From positions 1 to 20,094 of the IMG/VR virus record IMGVR_UViG_3300033571_001064: a stretch of 20,094 nt of DNA; one strand, written 5' to 3'. The notes below the pieces were generated by a model. The model did not search any database. It was given only the letters and a program-made list of their open reading frames with translations, and had not been told where the DNA came from. Of the stretch, positions 1,764 through 17,554 are shown piece by piece. This DNA is from a virus. The position numbers and the translations under genes were made by a program. Each line of letters begins with the position of its first letter. Position 1 is the first letter of the stretch.

Positions 1764-2270
1764 TTAGATAATAGTAGGTATCACAGCCGAGTCTACCTCG
1801 TATGCTAAATTCTCATTCTCTGCTACTAGTGTGATGTTGTACTTAGAACCATCTGCTTTTGCTGTTCCTGACCCCTCGGTCACGGTTGCTAATTGAGCAT
1901 ATGGGAAATACCAAAACTTACCATTTGCATCCTTAACAATCACAGCTAGGTCTCTTTGACCCTCACCTAAAATCTTGATTGCTTTAGATTTAGCAGCCTC
2001 TCTTCTAGAGAACACTAAAGTGATAGTAGCACGTACAAAGTTTGAACCAGCAACTAAATCTCTTTGGTCTTCCTCAACATAAGATGAGGTATTTCTTAAA
2101 AATTCGAATGCTTTAAAGTCGGATGAAACCGTCATTGCAGTAATCTCCCAAGTCGCAGCATCCTCAGTAATCGCAGTTACGTTTGCTAAATCGTTGATAT
2201 ACACATTTGTTATACCTCCGATGTTGCCATCGCACCCACGAAGAATAGATGTTATTGTTTGACAAGCCAT
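1764..2270 (-). CDS. Probable major tail tube protein
   Basis: A 168-aa protein that probably polymerises as stacked hexameric rings to form the tail tube. Evidence is size, place next to the capsid gene, and a pattern I associate with Bacteroidetes-phage tail-tube proteins: a Cys-containing N-terminus (MACQTITSILRGCDGNIGGI), a central strand before a Lys/Arg-rich helix (ATITLVFSRREAAKS), then LAVIVKDANGKFWYFP and a Gly/Thr turn leading into a beta-strand (GSKYNITLVAENEN). The start has an AT-rich leader (TTTATAAAATGG). The gene is bounded by intrinsic terminators on both sides with almost no space for its own promoter, so its level may be set by read-through from the capsid gene. An alternative is a head decoration protein. 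Confidence 0.7.
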   Translation of the reverse strand: MACQTITSILRGCDGNIGGITNVYINDLANVTAITEDAATWEITAMTVSSDFKAFEFLRNTSSYVEEDQRDLVAGSNFVRATITLVFSRREAAKSKAIKILGEGQRDLAVIVKDANGKFWYFPYAQLATVTEGSGTAKADGSKYNITLVAENENLAYEVDSAVIPTII

Positions 2271-2315: not shown

Positions 2316-3233
2316 TTAAGCGTATAATACGATTTCTGTAGGGTTTGTGTAGTAGAAACCAATCTTCAAGTTAGCACGTGTGCGGATGTAAGGCTCTGCT
2401 ACAGAATCAGATAAGTTAACAGCTTTTAATGCTTTACCATCTTGCTCACCATCGAATGCATAAATCATGTTAGATTTCAAAGTGATAACGAATGTATCGT
2501 TTGGCATACCCTCACATACAACAACCTTAACTCCTAAGAAAGTAAGTGCTAAAGGTGCAGTTACATAAGTCATAGTGTTACCTGATGCAGCAGCAAATTC
2601 GTATGCTTGTGCAACATTAGGTGCTACGAAAATACGTAGGTCAGCTTTTTTACGTTGTACAGCAGCTGGTAATGCAGCGAATGCTGTTTGTAATTTAGTT
2701 AATACGTTACCTTGGTTAACTGCTCCTGTTCCTCCTGAGATTACATCACCATCATTAGATAACTTTTTCAAGTAACCATCACACAATGCTAGTGTAGCAT
2801 TAGCAGATGCTGTGTCACCTTGCCATCTAATCAATTCAACATCCTCACCAATTTGCTTAGACATAGTGTCCCAGTAATAATTCATGAATGCTGGAACGGT
2901 AAAGTCAGCATTAGAACCTTGTGCCATCTGTAAAGCTACGAATGACTGCTCTAAATCGAATTGACAGATTTGAGCCATTGCAGATACTGCGCATACATCA
3001 ATGTCAATCGCATTTAACAAATCGGTTGGTGCAGAAAAGTTACAAGTAGATGCCTGTAGGATGTTACCAAATGTGATGTTACCTAATTTAGTAGCAGATT
3101 TAATTCCAGGTAATGAACGATAGTTATCTACGATGTCTTCGCTAATATAAGCACGTGAATAAAACTCATTCGGGTTAGGACATAACAAAGCATTGCTTTC
3201 TATATCCAAATCAAATTTCAATTTTCTTTCCAT
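2316..3233 (-). CDS. Major capsid protein (HK97-fold type, probable)
   Basis: A 305-aa protein directly after the protease-scaffold gene, the standard place and a usual size for a major capsid protein. The N-terminal third has alternating hydrophobic stretches and Cys residues (IDIDVCAVSAMAQICQF, about residues 77-93), followed by a helix (DLEQSFVALQMAQGSN) that fits the spine helix region of this family. The C-terminal part contains DLRIFVAPNVAQAYEF and beta strands (ALTFLGVKVVVCEGMP) consistent with the P and A domains, ending in a beta-rich KIGFYYTNPTEIVLYA. The start is decided by a TAAAAAAAATGG junction with the upstream stop: an A-rich leader of the kind favoured in Bacteroidetes translation. 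Whether the upstream protease trims its N-terminus is not visible. A strong terminator follows. Confidence 0.85.
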   Translation of the reverse strand: MERKLKFDLDIESNALLCPNPNEFYSRAYISEDIVDNYRSLPGIKSATKLGNITFGNILQASTCNFSAPTDLLNAIDIDVCAVSAMAQICQFDLEQSFVALQMAQGSNADFTVPAFMNYYWDTMSKQIGEDVELIRWQGDTASANATLALCDGYLKKLSNDGDVISGGTGAVNQGNVLTKLQTAFAALPAAVQRKKADLRIFVAPNVAQAYEFAAASGNTMTYVTAPLALTFLGVKVVVCEGMPNDTFVITLKSNMIYAFDGEQDGKALKAVNLSDSVAEPYIRTRANLKIGFYYTNPTEIVLYA

Positions 3234-3238
3234 TTTTT

Positions 3239-4192
3239 TTAGTCTTTAAACGTTTGTCTGTATTTGATTAATCTTTCGTGTGCTGACATTTTTTGTTCTT
3301 TCATTTCTTCTATTACTTCCTCTTCAACTTCTTCTTGTGCAAGTTTGTCAGCAATGACTTGCAAAAGTTCAGCTTTAAGTGCTTCGAGTGCTGGTGCAAC
3401 AATATCCAAAATAGCAGCCTCATCTGCCTTAGGGTCAACAGCCATAGCTACCTCTTCCTCTTTAGGCTCTTCTTCTACTACTTCTTCTTCTTGTGCTACC
3501 TCTTCTTCGATAGGCTCTTCTACTTCAGCAGCAGCTTCTACCTCTTTTTCTTCGACATCTTTAATCTCTACAATTTCTCCATCTTTTACAACGTAGATTT
3601 TGTCCTCGATTAGATGCTCACCATCGGGTAACTTCATACTATATTTATTTGTTTGTTCCTGTTCGTTAAATTTCAACCCGAAAAACCCCTCAATAGAAAA
3701 CCCTACTTTACCCAAGTCCACAAGTTCGTTGTAGTAGTCTTTGTCCGTGATTTGCGCAGTACACATGATTGTACCTTTTTTGACATCTATACCAAACGAT
3801 TTTGACTTGTCGGTCTCAGGGTCATCAACTATCCATGCTTCTAGTACATAAGCTGGTACAACCTCATCTGTATGTTCTACATTAAACAAGTTTTGGTTGT
3901 TTAGGTTAGCCATGAATTTAGAAAAGATTTTCTCGGTCTCTTCCTCTGTGAACTGCACAAAGTATTCTCCATCCTCATCGTTACGATAGATTTCGCTTGG
4001 TATCATTAGAGGCGCACATATACGCATCTTAGGTTCATCTGCGAAAATCATTTTTTTCTCGTGACTACTGAATGCAATTCCTTTAGTAACAATGGCTGGT
4101 TTACGGGTGAATGCTATCATAGATACTCCAAGGTCATTACCCTCGCTGTATTCGTCGTCTATGGTTATTTTCTTTATAGGCAATTCACTCAT
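3239..4192 (-). CDS. XkdF-like prohead protease fused to an acidic scaffold-like tail
   Basis: A 317-aa protein when started at 4192 (MSELPIKKI). The frame allows 4207, but 4192 carries the shared ATAGTTATG element. Residues about 45-175 resemble the XkdF-like putative serine protease family: RICAPLMIPSEIYR, then FNVEHTDE with His107 and VGFSIEGFF with Ser166 as likely catalytic residues. Members cleave scaffold and capsid precursors during head maturation. Residues about 213-249 are almost all Glu, Val, Ala and Pro, followed by a predicted helix (about 255-310) ending in a basic tail. This reads as a scaffold domain fused to the protease, and no separate scaffold gene is present. The capsid gene follows after six bases. 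It is the first minus-strand gene after the divergent promoter region. Catalytic residues are inferred from position, not proven. Confidence 0.85.
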   Translation of the reverse strand: MSELPIKKITIDDEYSEGNDLGVSMIAFTRKPAIVTKGIAFSSHEKKMIFADEPKMRICAPLMIPSEIYRNDEDGEYFVQFTEEETEKIFSKFMANLNNQNLFNVEHTDEVVPAYVLEAWIVDDPETDKSKSFGIDVKKGTIMCTAQITDKDYYNELVDLGKVGFSIEGFFGLKFNEQEQTNKYSMKLPDGEHLIEDKIYVVKDGEIVEIKDVEEKEVEAAAEVEEPIEEEVAQEEEVVEEEPKEEEVAMAVDPKADEAAILDIVAPALEALKAELLQVIADKLAQEEVEEEVIEEMKEQKMSAHERLIKYRQTFKD

Positions 4193-4224
4193 AACTATTT
4201 TACACATTTATTTGTTAGTGTACA
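4190..4224 (-). promoter_or_regulatory. Start-codon-overlapping element with TGTACA, protease-scaffold gene
   Basis: On the minus strand TAAAATAGTTATG (4202-4190) ends in the start codon; TGTACA (4224-4219) lies 26 nt before the ATG, exactly as at the 115-aa gene. The TGTACA is also one half of the dyad in the plus-strand promoter, so both directions may be controlled by one site. Confidence 0.45.
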
Positions 4225-4239
4225 ATTTTTGTACATTTG
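4211..4239 (+). promoter_or_regulatory. Bacteroidetes-type promoter for the plus-strand gene pair
   Basis: TTTG (4211-4214), 17 nt, then TACATTTG (4232-4239) fits the Bacteroidetes -33 TTTG / -7 TAnnTTTG pattern with every fixed base of the -7 box matched. A start point about seven bases past the -7 box would leave a leader of only some 8 nt before the ATG at 4254. Confidence 0.65.
4219..4235. promoter_or_regulatory. Perfect 7-bp dyad, possible operator
   Basis: TGTACAA (4219-4225), TTT, TTGTACA (4229-4235) is a perfect inverted repeat. It lies between the -33 and -7 boxes of the plus-strand promoter and overlaps the first bases of the -7 box, so a bound protein would block that promoter; it also covers the TGTACA of the minus-strand element. 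No T-run follows, so it is unlikely to be a terminator. Confidence 0.5.
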
Positions 4240-4253
4240 TGAAAACTTCAACA

Positions 4254-4808
4254 ATGATAGAACTAGGTACAACAACAATCAAAAACAGAGTAGATGAGTT
4301 TACTCTAAACGAGTTTCAAACCATCACATCGATACTTGCAGATGAGTCACTTGACAAAATAGAACAATGGGTAAAGGTATTCGTGTTTTTAGGCGCAGAT
4401 GAAAATGAGGTAGATGGTTTAGACTTTTCCGAGTTTAAGGAATACGTAAAGCAATGGAATGAAAACCAACCTAATCTTGATAATTCATTCTTAAAGTCAT
4501 TCGATTTAAACGGATACACATATCAAGCATATGATAATGAGTTTAAGCTGAACGTAAAAGATTTAAAACACATCGAAAAGATTATCAAACAAAAACCATC
4601 TGCATACATTCTAGATGTAATGGCTATTATATTTAAACGTACTGATTTGTCATCTAGTGAACACTACACAGAAAGTCATTTAAAGCATAAAGCTAAACTT
4701 TTTAAAGACCTTGATGCATCTATTTGCATACCCTATATAAACTATATCGGTCAAAAAATATCTAACACAGCAACACAACTAGATGCAGTTACCGAAGTCG
4801 TGGAGTGA
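4254..4808 (+). CDS. Putative tail-assembly chaperone, first of a paralogous pair
   Basis: A 184-aa acidic, helical protein (MIELGTTTIKNRVDEF...). The open frame extends to 4092, but that part runs antisense through the protease gene, whereas the ATG at 4254 lies just behind a Bacteroidetes-type promoter. The protein lines up with its downstream neighbour in order: FTLNEF with ISLEQF, an acidic segment near residue 50, LNGYTYQAYD with LGHYTFKPFE, HIEKIIK with DIEHYFK, a hydrophobic stretch plus IIFKR with ILFKK, and LFKDLDASI with LFLDIPITD. Chaperones that guide tape-measure folding often come as two adjacent genes like this. It is encoded opposite to all other genes in the window. Its last 26 bases overlap the next gene in another frame. 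Function is inferred from style, size and pairing. Confidence 0.75.
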   Translation: MIELGTTTIKNRVDEFTLNEFQTITSILADESLDKIEQWVKVFVFLGADENEVDGLDFSEFKEYVKQWNENQPNLDNSFLKSFDLNGYTYQAYDNEFKLNVKDLKHIEKIIKQKPSAYILDVMAIIFKRTDLSSSEHYTESHLKHKAKLFKDLDASICIPYINYIGQKISNTATQLDAVTEVVE

Positions 4809-5514
4809 CATTAGTCTTGAGCAGTTTATAGAACTTGCTGAACTAGACAAAAACGAGTTTGATTCATTAATAGAGTATAATGTGCTAGTGTTATCTATTC
4901 TTCTAGATGAGGATATAGATGTATTTGAAGAAATGGAACTAGATGAATTGAATGACTTGATGAAAAAAGTCAATTTTATTCGTAGTTATCCATCTAAAAA
5001 TCACATACAAAAGCTAGGACATTATACTTTTAAGCCATTCGAGAAACTTTCTTTAGGCGAGTTTATAGATATAGAACACTACTTTAAAGATGGCATCAAA
5101 AACCTACCTTTAATTTGTGCTATTTTGTTTAAGAAAGTTAAGCTAGATGAATGGTCTAATATAAATTATGAGCCTTACACATACGACTTGAACACTAGAC
5201 AAGAACTTTTCTTAGACATACCTATCACCGATGTGTTTAATATATGGACAAGCTACTCGAAATTTCGTGAAAACTTTGTTCAAACATACCAGCCTTTGTT
5301 TAGTCAAAAGGTAGATGACGATGAAGAGATGGATGAGATGACAGCAGAAGAAAAGAAACAAGCTGACCTCGAATCTCGCTATTCAAAATGGGCATGGGAA
5401 AATATGGTATATAGTCTAGCTAATGAAGATATAACCAAGGTAAACGAAATCACGGACATGCCTCTAATATTCGTGTTTAATATGGTTAGTATGAAAGAGG
5501 AACTTAGTATGTAG
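4783..5514 (+). CDS. Putative tail-assembly chaperone, second of the pair
   Basis: A 243-aa acidic protein beginning MQLPKSWSDISLEQFIEL, an opening I associate with predicted tail-assembly chaperones of Bacteroidetes phages. It continues with a helix-rich core (IEHYFKDGIKNLPLICAILF), NYEPYTYDLNTRQELF, then an acidic linker (DDDEEMDEM) near residues 183-191 and a C-terminal module with KWAWENMVYSLANEDITK and NEITDMPLIFVFNMVS. That C-terminal module is absent from the upstream paralogue. The ATG comes right after an in-frame TAG (4780-4782), so it must be made by its own initiation, likely coupled to the end of the first gene, and not by an upstream ribosomal frameshift. Its 3' end overlaps the convergent gp10-like gene by 11 bases. 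Confidence 0.77.
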   Translation: MQLPKSWSDISLEQFIELAELDKNEFDSLIEYNVLVLSILLDEDIDVFEEMELDELNDLMKKVNFIRSYPSKNHIQKLGHYTFKPFEKLSLGEFIDIEHYFKDGIKNLPLICAILFKKVKLDEWSNINYEPYTYDLNTRQELFLDIPITDVFNIWTSYSKFRENFVQTYQPLFSQKVDDDEEMDEMTAEEKKQADLESRYSKWAWENMVYSLANEDITKVNEITDMPLIFVFNMVSMKEELSM

Positions 5515-5944
5515 CTGGTGCTATCTTTAGATTCCACTCTCCACTAGGGTCACCATATAAATCAAAACCTACTCTTACCGTTGGGTTGTTTAATATCTTA
5601 GCCATCTGTAATAGTGGGTAGTTTTGAAACTGCCATTGAATATAGTCTGCTACTATTTCTGAAATCACAGCTTGTACTCGTGGCGAAGCTAACCAAAGTT
5701 CAGTAATATTTTGAGGCTCAATAAATCCCTTATTCCAAAGAATAGCACCTTTATCTTGAAACAAATAATAGTAAAGTGCAACGATTGTAATATCTATTTT
5801 GTTTAATTCTTCGCCAGTCATTGCTGAGATTCTAAGCGAATCATATAATGCACCCGTATCTATTAATCCTAGTCTACGAACCTCTTGCTGTAAAGCTCTC
5901 GCTAGTTTATTTCTCGTTGCATACTTTACTTTATATGTTGCCAT
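5504..5944 (-). CDS. HK97 gp10-like tail completion or neck protein (putative)
   Basis: A 146-aa protein. LGLIDTGALYDSLRISA (residues about 25-41) is the hallmark of gp10-like head-tail and tail-completion proteins, in which a long N-terminal helix is followed by a D-T-G-x-L-x-x-S motif. Next come a beta-strand (NKIDITIVALYYYLFQDKG) and a C-terminal helix. Such proteins join the finished tail to the head. The start is fixed by a TATAATGG junction, where the upstream 80-aa gene's TAA overlaps this ATG. Unlike usual phages, where this gene is beside the connector genes, it ends the tail-fibre group and runs into the plus-strand chaperone gene tail to tail, overlapping it by 11 bases. The final 45 residues do not match anything I recognise. 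Confidence 0.68.
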   Translation of the reverse strand: MATYKVKYATRNKLARALQQEVRRLGLIDTGALYDSLRISAMTGEELNKIDITIVALYYYLFQDKGAILWNKGFIEPQNITELWLASPRVQAVISEIVADYIQWQFQNYPLLQMAKILNNPTVRVGFDLYGDPSGEWNLKIAPATY

Positions 5945-6186
5945 TATAACTCAAATTGATTTCGTGTTTCAATAGGAACGTTATCCATTGCTTTGAATTG
6001 CTCAAATAGTATAGGTGTCATCTCAACAATAAAAATATCAGTATCTGCAATAGCACTAGACTCGTTTGCATATGTTCTATATGTACAAATAAAGTCAGAT
6101 ATTTCAGCATCACTAGGTCGTAAACATACATTACATTCTAGGTCTTCCTCTACGATGTGACTAGCTATTAAAACAAACTTTTTCAT
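5944..6186 (-). CDS. Hypothetical 80-aa protein
   Basis: Not recognised. It is a small acidic protein that starts MKKFVLIASHIVEEDLECNVC and ends with a helical-looking segment (IVEMTPILFEQFKAMDN). There is no signal peptide: the hydrophobic stretch is too short and is followed by acidic residues. It begins within the stop of the 314-aa gene (ATGA overlap) and its stop overlaps the start of the gp10-like gene, so it is probably translated by coupling in the middle of the tail operon. Two close cysteines (CNVC, about residues 18-21) plus one at about residue 34 could be structural, but there is no complete metal motif. A chaperone or small virion part would fit the position. Confidence 0.75.
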   Translation of the reverse strand: MKKFVLIASHIVEEDLECNVCLRPSDAEISDFICTYRTYANESSAIADTDIFIVEMTPILFEQFKAMDNVPIETRNQFEL

Positions 6187-7127
6187 AGTTGCGAATATAC
6201 ACCTAATTTATACAAGTCAAATTGACCTGAGTTAGTTACTGCTGCATTCATTGTTCTAGAGGCAAAGAAATTTAACCCCGTAGTAGCAGATGGTAATGCT
6301 GTTACTCCACCCGTATATATACCTCCGATATACCCTCTAGCAATTGCACCCGTTTCTCTATTAATAACCTCGTACCAAATAACTTGTGCTGATGGTGGAT
6401 TATAAAGAGTAACTGAATAGATAGTAGTAGATACTGCACCCGCAGTTCTATTCGCTGGGAATGATGCTCCTAGGTCTACCTTACCACAAGTCCCTGTTGC
6501 ATCGTTGTAGAAAATCTGTAAGTTCGTATCACCAGCTTCACTACCTACACCTATTAAGTTGGTAAGTGTTGATAATTGAACCAATGATGTACCACCATAT
6601 GCAAGGTCGGCTGTACTAGATGCCATGCCATAAAATTGCTGACAATCTGCACCATATGCTGTATCACTAATATTAAAATCACAAACGAATTTAAAACCAC
6701 TTGTAATATACCACAATAACGCAGACCCTCTAAGACCCGTATATCTACCTGTCTGCACAATTGATGCATAGTAACGTAGACGAATAGATTTAGTTGCAAA
6801 GTTTGTTGATGCTACCGATTGTGCTAGAGTAGATGCAGATGCTGATGTAGTCACACCTCCATCAGTAACTAGAGTAGTAGAATTATTATTAAACGATACA
6901 CCTCTGTACGTTTCATTTCCATTCATCTGTGGTATAAACGTATTATTGAACACATTTTGCACTACCCCGTATGCATCTTTAAAGTATACTAGCTTACTTT
7001 CTAAATCGTAAAAGTATGTGCTATTGGCAACATCTAAAAAGTCTACGCTTGTATCTGTGACTTTTGTTATTTGTATGCCCGTTGTAGGATTAGATATAGT
7101 TAATCCTGTATAATTGTTTACTGCCAT
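6183..7127 (-). CDS. Putative tail-fibre or appendage protein
   Basis: A 314-aa beta-rich, Thr/Ser/Asn/Gly-rich protein without signal peptide or membrane segment. The first 60 residues (GLTISNPTTGIQITKV...) look like a short virion-attachment segment. The rest matches a pattern I associate with Bacteroidetes-phage fibre proteins: a FVCDFNISD strand, NLIGVGSEAGDTNLQIFYND, then VDLGASFPAN and a paired strand around VIWYEVINRETGAIARGYI. It ends with FFASRTMNAAVTNSGQFDLYKL. The likely role is a receptor-facing or decorating domain of the tail. Its start overlaps the stop of the 86-aa gene (TATAATGG). The sequence upstream in the operon is the large fibre, so this may be an accessory fibre subunit. 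No catalytic motif is seen. Confidence 0.7.
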   Translation of the reverse strand: MAVNNYTGLTISNPTTGIQITKVTDTSVDFLDVANSTYFYDLESKLVYFKDAYGVVQNVFNNTFIPQMNGNETYRGVSFNNNSTTLVTDGGVTTSASASTLAQSVASTNFATKSIRLRYYASIVQTGRYTGLRGSALLWYITSGFKFVCDFNISDTAYGADCQQFYGMASSTADLAYGGTSLVQLSTLTNLIGVGSEAGDTNLQIFYNDATGTCGKVDLGASFPANRTAGAVSTTIYSVTLYNPPSAQVIWYEVINRETGAIARGYIGGIYTGGVTALPSATTGLNFFASRTMNAAVTNSGQFDLYKLGVYSQL

Positions 7128-9863: not shown

Positions 9864-10585
9864 GGTTGTATTGTTATCGTGTTGTTGCCTAATGTCACTA
9901 CTGATATAGTTTGTTGATATACGCTGTTAACGTATATATCTATATTAGTATCAGGCAAAGTTAATGTATTTTCAGCAGCAACTGATTCAGTATATGTGCT
10001 ATCTGTATTTGTTACTATGCTATCACCTACTACTATTATTTCGGATGCACCACTATCAATGTCACCAAAAGCAAGTATTTCATCATTCGTGTTTTCGATA
10101 GTATACAATGCTGGTAAACAATCACTAGGTGTAGGTGTTGGTATAGGCTCAATTGGAATAGCACACACCCCGTACTGCTCAATCTCAAACGTTACATTTG
10201 CAACCCATCCCGCTACATAATCTAAATCATAGTTGTTTAAAGGTGACATCGTTGCTGTACCTACCACATCTACCTCAAAATCATTACCATTTTTAAAGTA
10301 AATGAACAAATCATTTAAAATGAGTTCGCAGTCCGATAGAATCGTGTTTATGTTTTCTCGGTCATCTTGTATAAGGTCAACACAATAGATGTCTAGTGTG
10401 ATAGCTTTTGCATTTAAGTCACTATAACCCGATGCTGGAACTACAAATACAACGGGATACTTCTCGTCTTTAGTGCTAAAGTTTGGCATCTGTTCACGAA
10501 ATTCCCCAGCATACTTTTTAATCTGCATGTGTGCCGAGCAGAATGCCTCTATTTTAGTCAGTAATTTTCTGTAACTTATTGTCAT
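9860..10585 (-). CDS. Tail-terminator-like protein with extra C-terminal beta module
   Basis: A 241-aa protein. Residues 1-145 resemble a family found in Bacteroidetes-phage tail operons: a helical N-terminus, KYPVVFVVPASG, a strand ALTLDIYCVD-like segment, DDRENINTILSDCELIL and DYVAGWVANVTFEIEQYGVCAIP. Size and fold pattern (two helices against strands) fit proteins that cap the tail tube, but this is inference. A Pro/Thr linker (EPIPTPTP, about 146-153) then leads to a 90-residue beta-rich, Asp/Thr-rich module ending DIYVNSVYQQTISVV, similar in style to surface-exposed Bacteroidetes-phage domains. It is expressed with its neighbours: both ends overlap by four bases (ATGA). The location between tape measure and fibre fits either a tail tip or tail terminator. 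Confidence 0.65.
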   Translation of the reverse strand: MTISYRKLLTKIEAFCSAHMQIKKYAGEFREQMPNFSTKDEKYPVVFVVPASGYSDLNAKAITLDIYCVDLIQDDRENINTILSDCELILNDLFIYFKNGNDFEVDVVGTATMSPLNNYDLDYVAGWVANVTFEIEQYGVCAIPIEPIPTPTPSDCLPALYTIENTNDEILAFGDIDSGASEIIVVGDSIVTNTDSTYTESVAAENTLTLPDTNIDIYVNSVYQQTISVVTLGNNTITIQP

Positions 10586-13137
10586 AACGCACTTCCCTCT
10601 TCATAATATGCTTGTAGTTTTTGTGCAGATGTTATCTGTGTTTCACTCACTACCGCTGTGACTACTATATTTTTCTCCTCAGGTGTTGATGCACCGAGAT
10701 TGTTTGCTTGGTTACCTTGTCCAACTAGATTAAATGATGGTGATGCTGGTGTACTACTTACTCCACCACCTCCTAGGCTAGGGTTAGGTGCTTCGACACC
10801 TCCACCTCCTCCACCATCGTATTGGGTACTAGCTATTTTTGCTATGTTGGCTGCACTCGTTGCCACAGCAAAAGCTAGTGATGCTATTCCTAGTGGGTTA
10901 GGTACTGCTCCAATGGCTATAGGTGCTTGTGCTAGTGATGCAGTAACAGCTTTGAAACCATCCATGATAGCACCAGCTAACTGCAATTTTTTGTTAGCTT
11001 CAAATTGTTTTTTCATCAACTTCTCTTCCTCTTCACTACCCTTTTTAACTTTGCTTAACCTACTTGCAAATACAGCATCTGTTAACCCTTGTACAGCGTT
11101 TAAACCTTTCTCTGCTGTTTCTTGATACTTTGCAAGTTCGGCTTGTCGTAGTGCTTTAATTTTTTCTGTTGCACCCTCTTCTGCTGTGATACGTGCTTGT
11201 CTATACTTCTCCTCTATTGCAGCTTTCTCGCTTTGACTTAAATCTAGTGCAGCCAATTCAGCTACTCGTTGTGCCTCAATTGTTTCAAGTTCTTTTTGTG
11301 CTGCTTGTTCAATTAAATCTACACGACCACTTATATTACCTTTATAATGCTCTAGATTAAAATCAAGCATTGACTGCTCTACCTCTAGCATCTCAGCCAT
11401 AGCTTTTAATTCTGCTTGGTTAGCTTCTATCTTTAAGGTGCTTATATCAAGTTCTGCTTGTTTGATTAGTTTCTCTCTTTCTCCTATTGTTAACTCCGTG
11501 TTTTGCAAGGCAATGTCTCTCTCTACTTCAACTAATTTAATAGCTGCATTTAGTCTCTCTGCGTTATTAGTTGCATTAAGTTTAAGTAATTCGGCTTCTG
11601 CTTGTGCTTGTCTGTTTACACTATCGGTTACCGTTGTGTTAAAAGTTTCTTGTAGTTCTATTTTCTTTTCTTGATAATCTGCTTCAATCAATGCCAATTG
11701 GTCATTGGACATCTTAAACTCCTTTTGGTATTTCTTTAAGAAACCAAGCTCAGCATCTAGTTTATCTTTCTCAGCATTAACCCTATCTTGCGTACCCTCT
11801 TTTGTTTTAGCTATCTTTAGAGCCTCTGCATCTTGCAATGCTTTGTATTCCGTTTCTTTTAATTTAATGTAATCTTCTTTTGCTTTATTCGCAGCTTCAC
11901 GTTGTTCTTTTGCTCTTTCTTGTCTAGCTTTCCTTTCGTCTTCCGCTACTCGTTTGTCAACCTTTTGTGCTTCACCAGCGTAGAACTTTCTAATCTCGTT
12001 TTTTGTCTGTTCTAATAATGTAGTATTTTGACCTAGCTGTTTAGCTTTTCTAATTTCTATGTCTATTTCTGCTAATGCACGTTGCTCTTGAATTTTAAAC
12101 TCAGCCTTAGCACGTTCATTCTCATTCTTTATATTTTTAGTTTTCCAATCTTGTAAAGTCTGGAATGCTTTTCTGTTTAAGTCAATGATAGCCTTTTGTT
12201 TAGACCTCTCTATCTCAACCTCTTGTTGACTTAAATCTCGTCTTTTATCCTTTAATTCGGATAGTTGTTTTTTCTGTTCATCGGTTAACTCTCCACCCAT
12301 GTCAGTAATCTTGTTGAGACTTTCAATCTCTCTGTCTACTGATTCTTTGGTTTGTGTTACCTTGTTTTTTTGGATGTCGTATAAAGACTTGTTTAAATTT
12401 ATTTGTTTGCCTATTCTCTTTTCTAACATCTTTACTTCCTCATCGGACATATCTGCAGTTAGATTGTATAGGTCTTCTCGTGTTTTAGCAGTTTTTTCTA
12501 TAGACTTTCTATTTTGCTCTTCAGCTTTTGCTATCTTTTCTGCACTCTCTTCTGCTGCATATGTTGTAAGTCCTAGCCAATCGGTCATCTTTTTAAATAG
12601 GTCTATAACAGCATTGATAGGTATCATTAATGCTTTCATCACTTTTTGAAGAACACCTATCTTATTTAAGAAAATACCAACTGCCACAACGATAGCAGTA
12701 ATCACAGCAACCAGCAAAAATATTGGATTGGTAAGTAATTGAATACCAAACTGCACAAACGTTTTACCCAATGTACCAACCGTGCTTATCAACCCTTTGA
12801 TTTGTCCACCTATCTCTTTAGGTGTTAGACTTGTTAATGTTTGGTTAAATATTTTAGCTTTCTCACTAGCACCCTCGAAATCTAAAGACATCAAATCATT
12901 ACCTATCATTCCAAACGAGTTACTGATAGCTTCAAATTTAGACCCTGTGGCGAATATGCTTACTTGCTCGTTTACATCTTTTAATCTATCCTTTAGCTGT
13001 CCAGCACGTTCAGCAAGGTCTTGCATCTGTTTTGGGTCTGTAGCTTGGTCTATCTGTCCTTGCAAAGACCGAATCTCTGCTTTGATTGCAGCTACTCCTG
13101 ATAAACTAATAGGTATTTCAATCGGTTGTTGTGCCAT
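10582..13137 (-). CDS. Tape measure protein
   Basis: An 851-aa protein that sets tail length and is probably delivered with DNA. Residues 1-60 are typical for Bacteroidetes-phage tape measures (SGVAAIKAEIRSLQGQIDQA). One strongly hydrophobic segment lies at about 137-158 (NPIFLLVAVITAIVVAVGIF), then a long charged coiled-coil region (about 200-690) rich in Lys, Glu, Ala and Gln. The C-terminus holds an Ala/Gly-rich hydrophobic segment (ASLAQAPIAIGAVPNPLGIA) and a Gly-rich tail including six consecutive Gly. No lysozyme or peptidase motif is visible. If mostly helical at 1.5 angstrom per residue, it would span about 130 nm. The start carries the AATATAGTTATG element after a 29-base gap. Its presumed chaperones are about 5 kb away on the other strand. 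Confidence 0.9.
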   Translation of the reverse strand: MAQQPIEIPISLSGVAAIKAEIRSLQGQIDQATDPKQMQDLAERAGQLKDRLKDVNEQVSIFATGSKFEAISNSFGMIGNDLMSLDFEGASEKAKIFNQTLTSLTPKEIGGQIKGLISTVGTLGKTFVQFGIQLLTNPIFLLVAVITAIVVAVGIFLNKIGVLQKVMKALMIPINAVIDLFKKMTDWLGLTTYAAEESAEKIAKAEEQNRKSIEKTAKTREDLYNLTADMSDEEVKMLEKRIGKQINLNKSLYDIQKNKVTQTKESVDREIESLNKITDMGGELTDEQKKQLSELKDKRRDLSQQEVEIERSKQKAIIDLNRKAFQTLQDWKTKNIKNENERAKAEFKIQEQRALAEIDIEIRKAKQLGQNTTLLEQTKNEIRKFYAGEAQKVDKRVAEDERKARQERAKEQREAANKAKEDYIKLKETEYKALQDAEALKIAKTKEGTQDRVNAEKDKLDAELGFLKKYQKEFKMSNDQLALIEADYQEKKIELQETFNTTVTDSVNRQAQAEAELLKLNATNNAERLNAAIKLVEVERDIALQNTELTIGEREKLIKQAELDISTLKIEANQAELKAMAEMLEVEQSMLDFNLEHYKGNISGRVDLIEQAAQKELETIEAQRVAELAALDLSQSEKAAIEEKYRQARITAEEGATEKIKALRQAELAKYQETAEKGLNAVQGLTDAVFASRLSKVKKGSEEEEKLMKKQFEANKKLQLAGAIMDGFKAVTASLAQAPIAIGAVPNPLGIASLAFAVATSAANIAKIASTQYDGGGGGGVEAPNPSLGGGGVSSTPASPSFNLVGQGNQANNLGASTPEEKNIVVTAVVSETQITSAQKLQAYYEEGSAL

Positions 13138-17544: not shown

Positions 17545-17554
17545 AACTATATTA
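17542..17554 (-). promoter_or_regulatory. Start-codon-overlapping element, tail-tip gene
   Basis: TAATATAGTTATG on the minus strand; the TAA is the stop of the large terminase and the ATG starts the 471-aa gene. No TGTACA is found at 26 nt; a TGTACT lies 36 nt before the ATG, one helical turn further. Confidence 0.4.

Follow-up and report, generated by a model that had tools for sequence, protein, structure and literature searches.

A reversed two-gene island in a clade of Bacteroidetes-type phages: paralogues in place of a frameshift gene and a probable tail assembly chaperone operon

Few recoding events in tailed phages are as conserved as the frameshift that yields the long tail assembly chaperone. 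In the gpG/gpGT pattern, a short and a long protein are produced via a −1 frameshift, with the long form carrying an extra domain (PMC5009743), and other tail assembly chaperone loci use poly-T sites (PMC12846349). Separate genes have also been described. T4 makes its short and long tail assembly chaperones from separate genes, according to Vladimirov et al. 2022 as cited in PMC10885494 and PMC12846349, and some Microbacterium cluster EA phages carry two chaperone ORFs with no evident frameshift and apparently separate expression (PMC7302621). The locus described here is a reversed two-gene island within a 20,094-nucleotide stretch of viral DNA (IMG/VR record IMGVR_UViG_3300033571_001064), referred to throughout as the window. 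The island is very probably a two-gene tail assembly chaperone operon derived from a frameshift ancestor that was duplicated and inverted.

The reversed island and its promoter

Inspection of the window's ORF list reveals g1 and g2 as the sole plausible plus-strand genes amid minus-strand virion genes (Table 1). The minus-strand series comprises TerS, TerL, orf471, orf989, the tape measure gene, orf241, a fibre gene, genes of 86, 314 and 80 aa and the gp10-like gene, and it continues past the island with the protease, MCP, tail-tube-like, orf127 and portal genes. GC and AT skew, computed from the base composition of the window, flip sign across the island as expected for reversed genes. ORF list and skew together bear out the coordinates and strands of the island described in an earlier sequence-only reading, which had also correctly placed the pair ~5 kb from the tape measure gene on the opposite strand. 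Both genes are under purifying selection, with dN/dS of about 0.05-0.15 in most pairs; the g2 value for the window versus two relatives (L002/L003) was discarded owing to an unaligned codon indel.

Table 1. Coordinates of the island, its surroundings and the frameshift gene of phage P12024L. Positions refer to the window except in the last row.
Feature	Position	Strand	Remarks
g1	4254..4808	+	184 aa; short form (TAC-N-like), putative tail assembly chaperone
g2	4783..5514	+	243 aa; long form (TAC-NC-like), putative in-frame counterpart of relatives' frameshift product
g1 end/g2 start overlap	4783..4808	+	26 nt; +1 frame relation
g2 C-terminal domain, residues 160-241	5260..5505	+	matches relatives' −1-frame ORF (profile B), window E 2.4e-15
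Island promoter	4211..4239	+	TTTG-N17-TACATTTG: −33 TTTG 4211-4214, −7 box TACATTTG 4232-4239
g2/gp10-like convergent 3' overlap	5504..5514	.	overlapping stops
gp10-like gene	5504..5944	-	146 aa; labelled by sequence appearance and order; island border in nearly all relatives
XkdF-like head protease gene	3239..4192	-	PF14550; other border of island
Major-capsid-like structural protein (MCP)	2316..3233	-	served for synteny and tree
Tail-tube-like protein	1764..2270	-	phrog_19091 (unknown function); label suggested by appearance and order
Tape measure protein gene	10582..13137	-	presumed chaperone client
TerL/orf471 gap	17545..17551	-	7 nt, empty; site of single frameshift gene in distant relatives
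P12024L (L009) gp40/gp41	23946-24640	virion strand	gp40 = zero-frame ORF, gp41 in −1 ORF; TTTTTTT at 24389

About 160 related loci were gathered by scanning with the protease and the capsid protein; g1 is reversed in 128 of them and g2 in 124. A stricter count gives 121 loci with both genes and 6 with g1 only, in each case opposite to the capsid and protease genes. No related locus that carries g1 has it on the virion strand, and in this synteny the reversal is fixed. The site of the island is always the interval between the gp10-like and protease genes (99 complete cases and 14 ended by a contig end). The loci with the island come from a large group of aquatic Bacteroidetes-type phages, in which g1 and g2 are kept as split genes. 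A first scan of GTDB genomes found no kin, and a second found two contigs from metagenome-assembled genomes (MAGs). These are phage-like contigs binned into MAGs, one of them labelled uncultured Bacteroidetes. A Bacteroidetes host is suggested for the clade of the window.

The sequence-only reading had also given the pair a promoter of its own, which is upheld by conservation among relatives. In the window alone the promoter pattern occurs at chance level (2 found vs 1.1 expected in 20 kb). Upstream of g1, the −7 box TAnnTTTG is present in 82/82 distinct loci, as against about 5 in shuffles, and it was found before none of the protease (0/69), MCP (0/74), portal (0/60) or tape measure (0/58) genes. 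The −33 TTTG stands at suitable spacing in only 14/82 loci. The distance from the box to the g1 start is mostly 11-17 nt, or 52-53 nt in 28 loci whose start was taken at a downstream ATG; in the window the box ends 14 nt ahead of the start. The leader of the g1 transcript would be very short and the mRNA nearly leaderless. A perfect 7-bp inverted repeat, TGTACAA-TTT-TTGTACA, touches the −7 box at 4219-4235 and occurs in close relatives only. Since the palindrome is missing from the more distant upstream regions printed, an operator is not claimed here. A TAnnTTTG box also lies 21 nt before the g2 start in 24 distinct loci; counting any such box before g2, the split clade has 28/83 versus 2.9 expected. 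The long form may have a second promoter here, or the box may be a coincidence of the coding sequence within one subclade.

At its other end, the island converges on the gp10-like gene, and the overlap of the two stops is kept at 4-21 nt in nearly all loci. No terminator was found at this convergence in the window, so late transcription probably reads antisense through the island.

Paralogy of the pair and the frameshift gene of relatives

A tblastn search of g1 and g2 against isolated phages returned nothing, and their kinship was reached through the protease/capsid loci and single-gene relatives. Comparison of the two family profiles gave a match covering almost all of g1 (hhalign 99.9%, E 1.9e-32), which makes the two genes paralogues. 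Distant relatives, which include the cultured Nonlabens phage P12024L besides viral contigs from metagenomes, carry one virion-strand homologue beside TerL (81 loci). In 85/85 loci where both parts are readable, a second ORF in the −1 frame overlaps the 3' end of this homologue. An in-frame TTTTTTN is found at the ORF overlap in 64/64 distinct sequences versus 6.9 expected from codon shuffling, a count in which the relatives are not independent samples.

To relate these reading frames to the split genes, one profile was made from five zero-frame ORFs only (A) and another from five −1-frame ORFs only (B). Profile A matches g2 residues 2-150 and profile B residues 160-241, each in 75/76 g2 sequences, and profile B matched 0/95 g1 sequences. 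From this domain equivalence, g2 corresponds to the long product placed in a single frame and g1 to the short product. Canonical −1 heptamers within g1 and g2 lead to no product extending >10 codons past the ORF end, and no third copy was found in 23 near-complete clade genomes. Judged by these comparisons, the two genes of the split clade replace a frameshift-encoded short/long pair and have no productive slippery sites. This replacement of a programmed frameshift by paralogues is the main point of the locus, and it had been missed by the sequence-only reading.

The annotation of P12024L treats gp40 and gp41 as separate hypothetical proteins (PHROG 32199 and 38404, both of unknown function). 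They are very likely the halves of one −1 frameshift gene, which would correct the annotation and offers a likely function for both PHROG families.

Chaperone identity, history and rival explanations

Assignment of g1 and g2 as tail assembly chaperones is well, though indirectly, supported by their short/long layout, by the −1 frameshift ancestor and by the tape-measure position that relative L072 suggests for that ancestor. The profiles of g1 and g2 indicate a shared N-terminal domain with an extra C-terminal domain on the long form. To this extent the earlier description of the genes as chaperone-like stands. Curated families and solved structures do not add to it: Pfam and PHROG searches with g1 and g2 gave chance-level matches only, with no curated chaperone family, and the comparison with known chaperone folds that had been proposed gave no match in the PDB. 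Since no solved chaperone structure was matched, the fold does not prove chaperone function. The predicted models (pLDDT 89 for g1 and 85 for g2) have a common order of main elements with extra C-terminal helices in g2, and both find one viral fold family that includes P12024S. A single annotated tail assembly chaperone was returned weakly by the BFVD fold search (E 0.035, prob 0.95). The product of Flavobacterium phage 6H gp10 (10352-10927) gave a weak profile and fold match that was left unused, as the −1 frame is shut just past its T run. The 6H gene lies upstream of the tape measure gene and is followed by an unannotated −1-frame ORF with one interrupting stop.

In L072 the frameshift gene precedes the tape measure gene, both having the same orientation, and two homing-type genes lie in between, both matching NUMOD3 and one also GIY-YIG. 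With the mobile genes set aside, the frameshift gene stands in the canonical chaperone place. Homing-endonuclease-type genes at 2605-3171, 3510-4055 and 5836-6330 (the third by resemblance) flank the L072 tape measure gene. Trees place L072 as sister to g2 for the chaperone (support 95/98) and as sister to the split clade for the tape measure protein (91/97), and within the split clade for capsid and protease. Considering L072 and L075 versus L070, the capsid and protease genes of the head give L072 another placement than do the tail genes for tape measure protein and chaperone. The conflict may reflect head-gene exchange or long-branch error. A single origin of the split state, after divergence of the L072 lineage, is likely from these trees, and is short of proven because those of capsid and protease nest L072 among the split clade.

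Three further readings make the pair something other than two chaperone genes of fixed orientation, and a fourth still joins them by a frameshift. An unlikely reading is that the frameshift gene and its split descendants are a two-isoform virion or assembly protein, e.g. a tail completion or head-tail component whose long form is the minor one. The missing chaperone family and fold matches would suit such a protein, as would the position of the gene in most frameshift relatives, which is after TerL and several kb from the tape measure gene. Against this, a −1 frameshift short/long pair with an extra C-terminal domain is a hallmark of tail chaperones (PMC5009743, PMC12846349) and argues for the chaperone reading; the L072 gene stands before the tape measure gene; and frameshift loci lack space for another chaperone there, the gap before the tape measure gene of L169 being about 125 nt.

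It is very unlikely that the island is a moron, that is to say an acquired host-takeover or regulatory pair unconnected to virion assembly. Its opposite strand and host-type promoter would fit, but g1 and g2 are homologues of the frameshift gene that relatives carry on the virion strand, and no clade member lacks the island or has it at another position among the structural genes. We give as little credence to a persisting fusion of g1 and g2 by +1 frameshift in their overlap. In its favour, g2 lies in the +1 frame relative to g1 in 97/98 distinct pairs, yet g2 starts on its own and has an entire N-terminal domain, and the stop codons and next bases differ between loci (TGAT, TGAG, TAAC and others). 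The constant frame is explained by inheritance of the overlap. A local inversion or assembly artefact in the window contig has nothing in its favour but the unusual orientation and is refuted by about 127 IMG/VR loci, drawn from numerous metagenomes, and by the two MAG contigs (L250, L251), all of which share the arrangement.

The preferred history, a duplicated and inverted frameshift gene, would begin with a single ancestral gene on the virion strand. Its zero frame would have encoded a short protein, and −1 programmed ribosomal frameshifting at a T run would have given some longer copies with an extra C-terminal domain, as in lambda gpG/gpGT. Duplication in the clade of the window would have left g1 with the short form alone and g2 with the long form fixed in a single frame, its slippery site lost. 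The pair would then have ended up inverted between the gp10-like and protease genes with its own host-type promoter. Gene order also differs between distant relatives (terL - chaperone - orf241 - orf471 - orf989 - tape measure - protease) and the clade of the window (terL - orf471 - orf989 - tape measure - orf241 - gp10-like - [reversed g2, g1] - protease).

In operation, g1 would most likely be translated first from the nearly leaderless mRNA, with excess g1 protein coating the tape measure protein. The g2 protein, whose start lies within the g1 end, would most likely be less abundant, and its C-terminal domain would recruit the tail-tube protein. Transcription and translation initiation, in place of ribosomal slippage, would then determine the short:long ratio. 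Separate timing or amount of chaperone, proposed earlier as a reason for the reversal, is plausible. A more specific version is tentative and, in our estimation, on the unlikely side: dosage control may have moved from slippage to transcription, with the host-type promoter making the pair before late transcription, antisense late read-through shutting it off, and amount and timing tied to when the virion operon switches on. In the clade of the window a near-universal frameshift was dropped via gene duplication, and the ancestral version survives in relatives. Since relatives keep the frameshift form, comparison within one phage group can address how far a fixed ratio, translation beside the tape measure gene and slippage are needed.

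Comparison with known chaperone systems

As in cluster EA phages, the chaperone ORFs of the window are without evident frameshift; those of cluster EA, however, are not reported as short/long paralogues or as reversed in PMC7302621. P12024L gp40/gp41 are homologous to g1/g2 but very likely make up one frameshift gene, which follows TerL on the virion strand. With lambda gpG/gpGT the window pair shares a short form and a long form with an extra domain, and its relatives use the −1 frame and a slippery T run. In contrast to lambda, the window has no frameshift and two genes, on the opposite strand and away from the tape measure gene, and the pair matches no curated chaperone family.

The separate chaperone pair of T4 is reportedly encoded by genes 26 and 51. 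In the T4 record, gene 26 is on the strand opposite to gene 51 and tape measure gene 29, and gp26 and gp51 belong to one Pfam family, PF12322. Both systems comprise paralogues from separate neighbouring genes (208 + 249 aa in T4 versus 184 + 243 aa in the window), with an extra C-terminal part on the long form and no frameshift. The T4 genes diverge, with gene 51 on the tape measure strand, whereas in the window both genes are reversed in one overlapping operon that has its own promoter, lies ~5 kb from the tape measure gene and has a frameshift ancestor in close kin. No homology of g1/g2 to PF12322 or to gp26/gp51 was detected, in a comparison with single T4 sequences that is weak for very distant kin. 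The window pair therefore seems to have replaced the frameshift independently, its split origin apparently separate from that of T4.
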